Below are positions 53,847-57,099 of a stretch of 57,099 nt of DNA, one piece after another. Positions within the stretch are counted from its first letter, which is position 1, and every line of letters starts with the position of its first letter. The position numbers and the translations under genes are program-made. The notes beneath the pieces were generated by a model, which worked only from the letters and a program-made list of their open reading frames with translations, ran no database searches and was not told the DNA's origin. Origin of the DNA: Actinomycetes bacterium (lineage in GTDB: Bacteria; Actinomycetota; Actinomycetes; Nanopelagicales; Nanopelagicaceae); contig JANYCW010000032.1 in assembly GCA_025360085.1 (NCBI GenBank), positions 1-57,099 on the forward strand, written 5' to 3'.

Positions 53847-54584
53847 CTAGGCAGATTTCTTAAACCAGGTTCTCCATATTGAAATTCCTGTTACGTAAAG
53901 TGGGAATCCAAATAGGATGTACTTTTCAATAAGAGTTGGATGACTTCCCGTTGCATCTGAATACTGCCATGACAAAATTGAAAGATCGGCGAGATAAATA
54001 ACTGTTAGCGGAAGTGTAATTTTTCTGAAAGGTACTACACGTACTAAATGGGGAATTTTAAAGCGAGTCAATTGAAGAACACAAAGAAACAAAGAGACAA
54101 TCATTACAACGGTTGAAGATGAGCCAAATATCAAGAATGTTGGTACAACCAAATTCCACACTGCTGGAAAACCATTAAACCAATGATCGTCCGTTTCTTG
54201 ATCAGTACGGGCAAACCAAAGAGCCGACGACAGGAAGATTGCTCCGGCAACTAATGTTTCGTAATGTTGAGGCAGTAATTGCAGGCGTGCAAGTAAGGCG
54301 ACAGGAACAACAACACAAGTGACGTAATCGACAACAAGATCAAGGACATGCCCATCGATTATTGGTGCGTGTATTGTTACGTTGAATTTACGAGCTATAG
54401 GGCCGTCTAAGCCATCTAATACCTGGCAAGCGATTAGCCAAAGCAGTGCGGCACGCCAACTATCGTTGAAGACCGCCTGAAGTGCAATCAACCCAGCTAC
54501 GGCACCGCTAGCGGTCATTACGTGAATGACATAACCTGCTCGGCGTGAAGATTGCGGGGAGTACGAAGTGCTCATTGCGCTCAT
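53847..54584 (-). CDS. pcs: CDP-alcohol phosphatidyltransferase, phosphatidylcholine-synthase-like
   Basis: 245 aa with about seven membrane helices. The CDP-alcohol motif reads D60-G61-x2-A64-R65-x12-G78-x3-D82-x3-D86 (DGPIAR ... GHVLDLVVD), with the longer x12 spacing found in phosphatidylcholine synthase (Pcs), which joins choline to CDP-diacylglycerol. The adjacent LDGLDGP and DYVTCVVVP also resemble Pcs. Choline-linked genes occur elsewhere in the window, but the product could also be another CDP-alcohol transferase. ATG at 54584 has AAGGGG upstream. Confidence 0.68.
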   Translation of the reverse strand: MSAMSTSYSPQSSRRAGYVIHVMTASGAVAGLIALQAVFNDSWRAALLWLIACQVLDGLDGPIARKFNVTIHAPIIDGHVLDLVVDYVTCVVVPVALLARLQLLPQHYETLVAGAIFLSSALWFARTDQETDDHWFNGFPAVWNLVVPTFLIFGSSSTVVMIVSLFLCVLQLTRFKIPHLVRVVPFRKITLPLTVIYLADLSILSWQYSDATGSHPTLIEKYILFGFPLYVTGISIWRTWFKKSA

Positions 54585-54623: not shown

Positions 54624-55049
54624 ATGAAAAACAGAACAAACTTCTCATTTTTAAAAGAGAAGAGAGCCCAGCAAACTTGGATTTTTCTGGTGATTGCCTG
54701 GGCATGCATCCGAGCGGTTGTTATTAAAGATGTATTTGGCCGATATGGAATCAATGGTTGGGCATATTTTGCTGTCGATCTTGGTTCCGCAATTCCATAT
54801 GCTGTCTATTCTGGGCGATGCGTCATTAACTATTTAGATAAAGATTGGTTTGCAATCCGCAAAAATGCTCTATTTGCTTTCATTTTCTTCTATATCCCAG
54901 ATTTTTATGTATTAATCTTTGCCAAGAAAGTTCCCACCTCGCTTTTAATCGGCTTCCTTGTATCAGTATGTCTTTTCACATTACTTGCCATTTGGACTCT
55001 TCGTAGTGATGTTTCAAAGGAGGAAGAGGGAGCTCATAACTCTGATTAA
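54624..55049 (+). CDS. Unknown membrane protein, four helices
   Basis: 141 aa. Basic N-terminus (MKNRTNFSFLKEKR), then hydrophobic segments at about 17-37, 43-62, 82-100 and 105-125, and a short acidic tail (SKEEEGAHNSD). No family recognised. ATG at 54624 is 39 bases from the start of the divergent Pcs-like gene, so the two may share control. Codon use looks ordinary. It stays hypothetical. Confidence 0.7.
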   Translation: MKNRTNFSFLKEKRAQQTWIFLVIAWACIRAVVIKDVFGRYGINGWAYFAVDLGSAIPYAVYSGRCVINYLDKDWFAIRKNALFAFIFFYIPDFYVLIFAKKVPTSLLIGFLVSVCLFTLLAIWTLRSDVSKEEEGAHNSD

Positions 55050-55068
55050 TTTCGCTGGAATCGCCAAT

Positions 55069-55157
55069 GTGAAGCAAGCTTGGCTGACAACTTCACGTTA
55101 GGCTTCACAATAAATAAGGAGTAGAAAATGCAATGTAAGGAGCAATTAATTCCTTCA
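55069..55157 (+). promoter_or_regulatory. Leader of the alditol oxidase gene with alternative stems
   Basis: GTGAAGC at 55069-55075 can pair with GCTTCAC at 55102-55108 or, through GTGAAG, with CTTCAC at 55091-55096; the two pairings exclude each other. Downstream lie AAGGAG (55116-55121) and a ten-codon ORF whose stop overlaps the oxidase start. This layout is suggestive of an attenuation-type or translation-coupled control. Function not shown. Confidence 0.4.
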
Positions 55158-55160
55158 TGA
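55128..55160 (+). CDS. Putative leader peptide upstream of alditol oxidase
   Basis: Ten codons, MQCKEQLIPS, then TGA. AAGGAG lies six bases upstream of its ATG, a better ribosome-binding site than any directly at the oxidase start. The stop TGA (55158-55160) overlaps the oxidase ATG (55157-55159) as ATGA, so ribosomes finishing the peptide could restart on the oxidase. Too short for homology; evidence is the site arrangement only. Confidence 0.45.
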   Translation: MQCKEQLIPS

Positions 55161-56398
55161 AAAACTGGAGCGGAAATGTCGAGTTTCAAGATTTAGCATT
55201 TTTAGAACCGTGTTCTTTGCAGGAACTTCAAGAAGTAATTCGCAAAAATGAGCGGATCAGAGTCCGTGGCACAGCCCACTGCTTCAATCAGTTAGCTGAC
55301 ACCTCGTCGGTATCAGTAAACCTCGCACGTATGCCGGAGGTAATTGAAATAAATGAGCAGGTGCCTAGCGTCACTGTTTTAGCGGGAATGACATTTGGGC
55401 AATTAGCCCCCAGGATCAATCAAGCTGGCTGGGCTCTAAGCAACTTAGCTTCCTTACCTCACATTTCAATCGCTGGATCTGTAGCGACCGGTACACATGG
55501 CTCCGGTATAACAAATCAAAATTTAGCCAATCAGATTATTTCGCTCAATGTTGTACTAGAAGATGGAACTTTAAAAAAGATTTCCAAAGGTGATGAGCTA
55601 TTTAATCCCATTGTAGTTGGACTTGGTTTGGGTGCAATTGTGTACCAGTACGAGATGAAGATTGAAAAAACTTTTAATATTCGTCAAGTTATCTATGAAG
55701 AGATTTCTAGGATAGAACTGCAAAGAAACTTTGAATCAATTATGTCGGCCGCTTATAGCGTGAGTTACTTCACCGATTGGTCAAATCTTGGTCAAGGTAA
55801 CCTCTGGTGTAAATTTCGTTCTTTAGAGATTATTCCTGAATCAATTGCTGGTTCTCAGAAGGCGGACCAGAAACAGCATCCAATTCCTTCAGTTGATCCA
55901 GAAGCATGCACAGATCAGCTTGAAATTCCTGGCCCTTGGCACGAAAGACTGCCACATTTTAAATTGGAGTTTATGCCAAGCGTTGGCAATGAAATTCAAA
56001 GCGAGTACTTTGTAGATATAAGGGATGCCGCAGATGTTATTTCTGAACTAGAAAAAATTGCAGCTGAAATTTATCCACTTCTGTGGATTAGCGAAATCCG
56101 AACAATTGCAGCAGATAATCTTTGGTTGAGCGGTTCTTTCCAGCGAAATACAGCCGCAATTCACTTTACCTGGAAGAAGAGCGATGCAATCTATCCTCTC
56201 ATTGAAAAAATCGAGGGACTGCTTTCCCCTTTTGCCTATCGACCACATTGGGGAAAGGCATTTTCTGCTAAATCTGAATATCTGAAAGAGGTATTCCCAC
56301 AGATAGATGATTTTAAGAAAGTAATCCTAGGATTGGATCCTTCTCAAAAGTTCTCGAATGATTTTACTCGAGACAAGTTAGAGTTTCACCAAAGATAA
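55157..56398 (+). CDS. aldO: Alditol oxidase (FAD-linked, AldO/xylitol oxidase family)
   Basis: 413 aa. The VAO-type FAD domain has RVRGTAHCFNQL, where His41 matches the covalent FAD attachment of Streptomyces AldO, and SLPHISIAGSVATGTHGSG. The substrate domain has WHERLPHFKLEF, EIRTIAADNLWLSG (Glu, Arg), IHFTW (Thr) and RPHWGKAF (Lys), which match the AldO active site residue by residue. It oxidises polyols such as xylitol or sorbitol at C1 with oxygen, giving hydrogen peroxide. No catalase gene is seen in the window. ATG at 55157 overlaps the leader ORF. The SDR gene 15 bases downstream is probably in the same operon. Confidence 0.9.
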   Translation: MKNWSGNVEFQDLAFLEPCSLQELQEVIRKNERIRVRGTAHCFNQLADTSSVSVNLARMPEVIEINEQVPSVTVLAGMTFGQLAPRINQAGWALSNLASLPHISIAGSVATGTHGSGITNQNLANQIISLNVVLEDGTLKKISKGDELFNPIVVGLGLGAIVYQYEMKIEKTFNIRQVIYEEISRIELQRNFESIMSAAYSVSYFTDWSNLGQGNLWCKFRSLEIIPESIAGSQKADQKQHPIPSVDPEACTDQLEIPGPWHERLPHFKLEFMPSVGNEIQSEYFVDIRDAADVISELEKIAAEIYPLLWISEIRTIAADNLWLSGSFQRNTAAIHFTWKKSDAIYPLIEKIEGLLSPFAYRPHWGKAFSAKSEYLKEVFPQIDDFKKVILGLDPSQKFSNDFTRDKLEFHQR

Positions 56399-56413: not shown

Positions 56414-57099
56414 ATGAGTTATGAGCTGCAAAACCTAAAAAATAAAGTCATAGTAATTACTGGCGCAACCGCAGGTATGGGTGCAGCCACAGCTAGGCAA
56501 CTAGTCGAACAGGGCTGCAAAGTTGTATTGAATGCCCGTAATGAAGTAAGGCTCAAGGCTCTCTGCGATGAATTAGGTAGTTCGAGCGCCACATATCTTG
56601 CAGGCGATGTATCTGATCCAGTTATTGCACGGGCAGTAGCTGCCGAGGCGATAAAAGTTTTTGGCACAATCGATGCAGTAGTTCCAAATGCTGGAATCGG
56701 TATGTATGGATCTGTATTGGATTACAGCGATGATGAAATAATTCGCATGATGCGGACCAACTACGAAGGCACGGTTCATATTGTCCGTGCCACGCTCCCA
56801 ACAATGTTGGCAAAAGGCCAAGGAGATATCGTAATTACCGCATCCGTTGCTGGTTTCCGTGGTGGTGGAGATGAATCAATTTATGCGGGGACAAAGCATG
56901 CTCAAGTTGGATTTGCAGGTGGCCTAGATCGCGAATTACGTGCAAAAGGTGTTCGCGTAGTACTCATCTGTCCAGCGGGTACCGATACTGAATTCGCATT
57001 AGAGGTTGGAAGAACCCCAGGATCTGATGATTTACGTAGTTATTTACGTCCGGATGATGTCGCTTTCCAAATTGTAACCGTCCTTCGCCAACCACGTTC
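56414..57099 (+). CDS. Short-chain dehydrogenase/reductase, 3' end beyond window
   Basis: At least 228 aa from ATG 56414 and open to the window end. Rossmann nucleotide motif VIVITGATAGMGAATA, GDVSDP, VVPNAGIG (NAG), catalytic Ser in ITASVAGF and YxxxK in IYAGTKHAQVGF. A classical SDR. Its place directly after aldO suggests a polyol or sugar oxidation step, but this is context only. No separate ribosome-binding site is clear. Confidence 0.88.
   Translation, partial: MSYELQNLKNKVIVITGATAGMGAATARQLVEQGCKVVLNARNEVRLKALCDELGSSSATYLAGDVSDPVIARAVAAEAIKVFGTIDAVVPNAGIGMYGSVLDYSDDEIIRMMRTNYEGTVHIVRATLPTMLAKGQGDIVITASVAGFRGGGDESIYAGTKHAQVGFAGGLDRELRAKGVRVVLICPAGTDTEFALEVGRTPGSDDLRSYLRPDDVAFQIVTVLRQPR

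Follow-up and report, generated by a model that had tools for sequence, protein, structure and literature searches.

In amino-acid attenuators of the trp type, the leader peptide is encoded by a short ORF ahead of the gene, and hairpins lie in its vicinity. The window analyzed here, i.e. the whole stretch of 57,099 bases, which is one whole contig (ending at 57099) of a 1.63-Mb genome in 61 contigs, has a ten-codon ORF ahead of a predicted alditol/xylitol oxidase gene and possible stems close by. In contrast to the trp-type attenuators, this ORF contains no codon run, no terminator-like site was found around it, and the stems lie upstream of the ORF and not after it.

According to the available text of Shell et al. 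2015 (PMC4633059), small ORFs 'coupled' to the next gene by RTGA are over-represented in mycobacteria. They comprise 5–50 codons with a TGA overlapping the RTG of the next gene and have leaderless starts, as determined by TSS mapping and ribosome profiling; in one example given there, the linkage and not the peptide was conserved. The mini-ORF of the window shares with this class, as far as that text describes it, the RTGA-type overlap, a length of 5–50 codons and the actinobacterial host; however, it has a Shine-Dalgarno sequence (SD) and is known from sequence alone, whereas the mycobacterial ORFs are leaderless and experimentally mapped. In the engineered Corynebacterium cassettes of Liu et al. 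2023 (PMC10367133), the accessible part of the report states that translation of the fore-cistron, with its start, and an SD were needed. A short fore-cistron and an SD driving a second start in an actinobacterium are common to both, but those cassettes, as presented there, were engineered on a leaderless promoter, whereas the fore-cistron proposed here has its own SD and an inner AAGGAG at a distance of 14 bases to the second ATG. Brown and Wade 2025 (PMC12548453), in the text at hand, describe NTGA (−4 nt) as by far the commonest spacing motif and propose that a short uORF may deliver the ribosome. The window has the same NTGA overlap and a short ORF as possible ribosome deliverer; in contrast, the cases covered in that text lie mostly between two annotated genes. 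Thus, judged by its layout, the arrangement appears to be of a known bacterial kind, namely the 'coupled' small-ORF class set out for mycobacteria in the available text of PMC4633059. For AldO, no description of a leader peptide was found in the open-access literature among the matches listed, which is consistent with the original prediction that none had been described.

The oxidase gene and its upstream mini-ORF

The following features were recorded on the window.

54624–55049, + strand: upstream gene of 141 aa, without a match in Pfam or NCBIfam, ending 107 bases before the oxidase gene
55063–55103, + strand: 12-pair hairpin, fold of −16.3 kcal/mol, beginning 13 bases past the upstream stop
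55084–55111, + strand: sigma-70-like site CTGACA-16-CACAAT, a consensus match only (1 in 351 bases; mean of 0.3, sd 0.7, in shuffles)
55099–55104, + strand: TAGGCT, alternative −10 of the TANNNT form, a consensus match only
55102–55108, + strand: GCTTCAC, alternative partner of GTGAAGC (55069–55075), from pair probabilities
55116–55121, + strand: AAGGAG, SD of the mini-ORF by sequence, 6 bases ahead of the ATG at 55128
55128–55160, + strand: ten-codon mini-ORF MQCKEQLIPS, the proposed fore-cistron, from sequence, shuffles and a survey of 246 leaders
55137–55142, + strand: second AAGGAG, within the mini-ORF, at a longer than usual spacing of 14 bases from the oxidase ATG
55150–55155, + strand: TTCCTT, just ahead of the oxidase ATG, a possible partner of either AAGGAG by pair probabilities
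55157–56398, + strand: FAD-dependent alditol/xylitol oxidase-like gene, 413 aa, with Pfam domains FAD_binding_4 and ALO
56414–57099, + strand: short-chain dehydrogenase gene, 15 bases after the oxidase gene, cut by the contig end

The FAD-binding and ALO domains of the oxidase are accompanied by nearly full-length matches to a FAD-binding protein (PDB 8ot8, E 2.5e-101) and to a solved xylitol oxidase (PDB 2vfr, E 9.7e-100), the combination by which AldO was recognized; in the profile search, the protein fell below the NCBIfam subfamily cut-offs. The gene probably encodes a sugar-alcohol oxidase with alditol/xylitol as the predicted substrate class. Its start at 55157 is sound because many relatives begin alike, with MKNW (MKNWSG or alike) at the same position, and because an in-frame stop occurs upstream at 55136. 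The same two observations ruled out the mini-ORF as an N-terminal extension of the oxidase. The oxidase and the short-chain dehydrogenase probably belong to one operon. At one related locus (L043), the oxidase is likewise followed by a protein of the short-chain-dehydrogenase type, as determined by sequence.

Matches to the 141-aa gene were obtained in 13 of 135 genus genomes, including that of the window. This gene is divergent from a CDP-alcohol phosphatidyltransferase gene (53847–54584), and in 8 of the 12 other genus genomes that carry the 141-aa gene, the two lie side by side by their coordinates. The genes downstream of it differ among groups, which marks a variable site; by eye, we take them to be a pyroglutamyl peptidase-like gene, a tRNA gene and a dehydrogenase gene. 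The oxidase was absent from all 12 other stretches around the 141-aa gene that were examined. The mini-ORF was also considered as a remnant of another gene; by eye, nothing similar follows the 141-aa gene in relatives.

The mini-ORF reads ATG CAA TGT AAG GAG CAA TTA ATT CCT TCA TGA, and its TGA (55158–55160) overlaps the oxidase ATG (55157–55159) as ATGA. Thus, the AAGGAG-led ten-codon ORF with a stop overlapping the oxidase start, as originally described, was confirmed in the sequence, and it has the form of a coupled small ORF of 5–50 codons whose TGA overlaps a downstream RTG start. SDs were scored at spacings of 4–11 bases, a range outside which the inner AAGGAG falls at 14 bases; within this range, scoring of the leader revealed no SD belonging to the oxidase ATG itself. 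A start-stop ATGTAA also occurs at 55133–55138, in the oxidase frame and 11 bases from the AAGGAG at 55116–55121.

Chance expectation and related loci

The 107-base leader was shuffled 20,000 times with its dinucleotides preserved; 30 of the shuffles (about 0.15%) contained an ATG mini-ORF that has a strong SD and ends between −6 and +12 of the oxidase start, and 224 contained one when every SD scoring at least 3.8 was accepted. For comparison with the remainder of the genome, the other 60 contigs were sampled with a single stretch each, 20,000 bases long at most. Among 246 leaders of at least 60 bases (793,619 bases of genome), surveyed for ATG mini-ORFs of 4–50 codons ending at most 40 bases from the gene start, that of the window was the only one with a strong SD. 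When weaker SDs and GTG starts were included, SD-led ATGA mini-ORFs occurred in 4 of 246 leaders, one of which precedes a doubtful gene, whereas 40 shuffled sets averaged 0.875 and never exceeded 3. A smaller survey at other settings (284,321 bases) yielded mini-ORFs in 5 of 97 gaps, one of which we assume from its sequence to be the end of a YidD-like gene. The gene starts underlying these surveys (788 genes in 0.79 Mb, and likewise the set of 97 gaps) are rough calls by a simple script. AAGGAG or AGGAGG at 4–9 bases before an ATG was found 6 times, including the case in the window, across 176,936 strand-bases of non-coding DNA of this genome not adjacent to a called gene start. The SD and ATG of the mini-ORF are therefore unlikely to be accidental, although about one such case per genome is possible by chance; overall, the mini-ORF is mildly beyond chance. 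By the simple rule, 562 of the 788 roughly predicted genes (0.79 Mb) have no SD, which hints that translation in this genome is to a large extent leaderless or coupled.

An order-level search matched the oxidase in 49 of 296 genomes, its own included, with many matches weak or partial, and a search of genome contigs yielded 6 loci of 39–41% identity; among the viral contigs searched, no oxidase relative was detected. The comparison was based on 37 relatives with a readable oxidase start, which are 39–64% identical in protein sequence and differently placed. Not counted among them were the window itself (L001), L055 and L056 (on the contigs of L049 and L050), L060 (no N-terminus) and L058. As L033, L034 and L035 are near copies, the 37 do not represent independent events. 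An upstream ORF of at least 80 aa ending between −12 and +4 of the oxidase start was present in 23 of 37 relatives (24 of 38 with L058, whose 134-aa upstream ORF ends at +4 as ATGA), and it abutted exactly, as ATGA or TAATG, in 17 of 37 (18 of 38 with L058). In 30 of the 37, no SD was found at 4–11 bases before the oxidase. Because abutting ORFs and missing SDs are this frequent, coupling looks usual for the oxidase gene among relatives, and the mini-ORF of the window occupies the place of the upstream ORF seen there. Conversely, no long ORF ends close upstream in 14 of the 37, and an SD is lacking as well in 11 of them, which speaks against coupling being needed.

The upstream neighbors, compared at L003, L033, L038, L043 and L054, are presumably a proline/aldehyde dehydrogenase-like gene (L003), a UppP-like gene (L033 and L038), an enolase-superfamily-like gene (L043) and an alcohol-dehydrogenase-like gene (L054). 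As these neighbors differ, the oxidase gene sits at different sites, often right behind another ORF. Six genus oxidases (L006, L007, L008, L009, L046 and L048) with neither an SD nor an adjacent long ORF have CTAAACTA in common upstream, a stretch that is maybe a promoter.

A lack of conservation in sister genomes had originally been named as evidence against the proposed leader, and this applies in part. An ATG mini-ORF of the AAGGAG kind occurred in none of the 37 relatives, the closest of which, at about 63% identity, is too distant to judge conservation properly, and weaker GTG mini-ORFs were seen in 2 of 37 (L009 and L059). Hence, a placement kept between species, which has been shown for some coupled small ORFs and is no requirement for the class, was not observed. 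When the leader DNA (55047–55190) was compared to the 135 genus genomes, 31 of them, the own included, gave a match at E ≤0.1; outside the own genome these were short and chance-like, the best covering 25 bases (E 0.001) and the others at most 43 bases (E ≥0.013).

Stems and promoter-like sites in the leader

The original prediction had further proposed switchable stems, in which one GTGAAG arm pairs with either of two CTTCAC arms. The letters are present (GTGAAGC at 55069–55075, CTTCAC at 55091–55096 and GCTTCAC at 55102–55108), and both pairings are possible on paper. Beyond that proposal, the first stem turned out to have 12 pairs, formed by GCCAATGTGAAG and CTTCACGTTAGGC with one bulge, and we additionally observed the second AAGGAG in the mini-ORF and the TTCCTT that pairs with either AAGGAG. 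None of 200 shuffles of the 56 bases at 55060–55115 was as stable as the −16.3 kcal/mol hairpin (z −2.90). Longer folds were weaker, with z −0.92 or −1.25 over 55050–55130 or 55050–55200. Compared to gaps of all lengths in its own genome, the best 56-base fold of the leader ranked 42 of 97, and 11 of 34 gaps of 80–140 bases had a best fold of −16 or lower; the hairpin is ordinary for gaps of this genome. The alternative stem had a pair probability of 0.05–0.07 at its outer pairs and 0.02–0.03 at its innermost, versus 0.80–0.88 for the first stem, and the best structure forced to hold it was 2.1 kcal/mol worse. A six-base arm with two downstream partners arose in 88 of 5,000 leader shuffles and, as a 2% event per leader, is unremarkable over a window of 57 kb.

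No terminator-like site was detected in 54950–55300, so that none lies between leader and gene as in an attenuator, and MQCKEQLIPS contains no regulatory codon run. Rfam yielded four matches on the window, all of them tRNAs elsewhere and none a riboswitch or structured leader, and a further Rfam search gave two that scored 12.6 and 14.4 bits, well short of the gathering thresholds. The two promoter-like sites would start a transcript at about 55110–55120, below the stems. Transcription starting downstream of 55108 had been named as evidence against the leader originally proposed, and both consensus matches would place it there. They would also give the mini-ORF a very short leader, while its SD stands at 6 bases. 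A direct-repeat operator was dropped as a candidate: TTCAC-N6-TTCAC occurred 3 times forward and 0 times reverse in the own genome, versus 3 and 2 for the control, and the N6 pattern searched does not fit the repeat of the window, which has seven bases between units (period 12).

In a 151-base fold, TTCCTT paired with the first AAGGAG at 0.65 and with the inner one at 0.34. The two partners were used about evenly in transcripts starting at 55110–55116, and the first nearly exclusively in the 107-base leader alone. The fold of 55112–55165 was not significant (z −1.54; 14 of 200 shuffles). Among the pairings examined, only that of TTCCTT with AAGGAG is placed such that it could affect either start. 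A lineage-private translational switch, in which TTCCTT would pair with the mini-ORF SD or with the inner AAGGAG and ribosome traffic on the mini-ORF would set or cut off the peroxide-making oxidase, is very unlikely.

A probable fore-cistron and its alternatives

We consider it fairly probable, on the evidence of layout, shuffles and relatives, that the ten-codon ORF is a fore-cistron handing ribosomes to the oxidase by termination-reinitiation. This reading is favored because the mini-ORF has a strong SD six bases ahead and ends in the ATGA overlap and because the oxidase has no SD at 4–11 bases, all of which are plain in the layout, and because so few shuffles were as good and the survey of leaders returned no second strong-SD case. 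A ribosome would load at the AAGGAG at 55116–55121, read ten codons, stop at the TGA inside ATGA and restart at the overlapping oxidase ATG, which has no SD of its own at normal spacing. Reading of the mini-ORF may also open the weak AAGGAG/TTCCTT pairing ahead of the oxidase start. The GTGAAG/CTTCAC stems would take no part and possibly lie outside the oxidase transcript, and the peptide sequence itself is probably of no importance. Translation of the mini-ORF, its coupling and the transcript start are predicted features, and a transcript start near 55118 would cut the AAGGAG and count against a fore-cistron.

That the mini-ORF is a chance feature and the oxidase starts without SD help, possibly on a short leader from the promoter-like site at 55084–55111, is an account we regard as rather doubtful. 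It draws on the 562 of 788 roughly predicted genes without an SD by the simple rule, and therefore the oxidase may need none, and on the 11 of 14 relatives that keep the gene with neither a nearby long upstream ORF nor an SD. Moreover, no equivalent mini-ORF or leader was found in the 37 relatives or, by DNA, in the 135 genus genomes, so that the mini-ORF is known from one genome, and an ATGA overlap arises readily by chance, as it needs no more than an A after the ATG; both points count against the fore-cistron. However, a strong SD at 4–9 bases before an ATG is rare in non-coding DNA, and only 30 of 20,000 leader shuffles were as strong. It is extremely improbable that the AAGGAG at 55116 instead serves the ATG TAA at 55133–55138 as a start-stop element stalling ribosomes; ATGTAA is present in the oxidase frame at 11 bases, but the ATG at 55128, at 6 bases, is better spaced.

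The stems invite two further readings. It is highly improbable that the oxidase is tuned by a change of partner, in which GTGAAG would move from one CTTCAC arm to the other upon mini-ORF translation or in response to a ligand. Both pairings exist, their forced structures differ by only 2.1 kcal/mol, and the first hairpin was more stable than all shuffles, but the stems end seven bases short of the SD and leave the SD, the mini-ORF and the oxidase start uncovered. In addition, the competing stem is scarcely populated, the fold is ordinary, the two-arm pattern recurs in shuffles, and no terminator-like site, codon run or Rfam match above threshold was obtained. Of the 'coupled or attenuated leader' in the original prediction, the coupled part is thus supported by the SD, the ATGA, the lack of an own oxidase SD and the abutting ORFs of relatives, whereas attenuation and switchable stems are not borne out. 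Alternatively, and quite possibly, though at less than even odds, the hairpin and repeats are features of the DNA or of a 3' end: the hairpin at 55063–55103 may form at the 3' end of the upstream gene, or it may be an inverted repeat that serves a regulator much as an operator does and overlaps the promoter. It begins just past the stop of the upstream gene and extends into the promoter-like site, but no terminator-like site was detected. This explanation concerns the stems only and is compatible with a fore-cistron.

A natural fore-cistron at this locus is plausible. If the ten-codon ORF is translated, it would represent such a fore-cistron in a small-genome actinobacterium and would suggest how a gene that usually relies on an upstream neighbor for its ribosomes can establish itself elsewhere, with a ten-codon stand-in acquired for that neighbor. 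This would be a modest point on translation and gene mobility rather than a new regulatory class.
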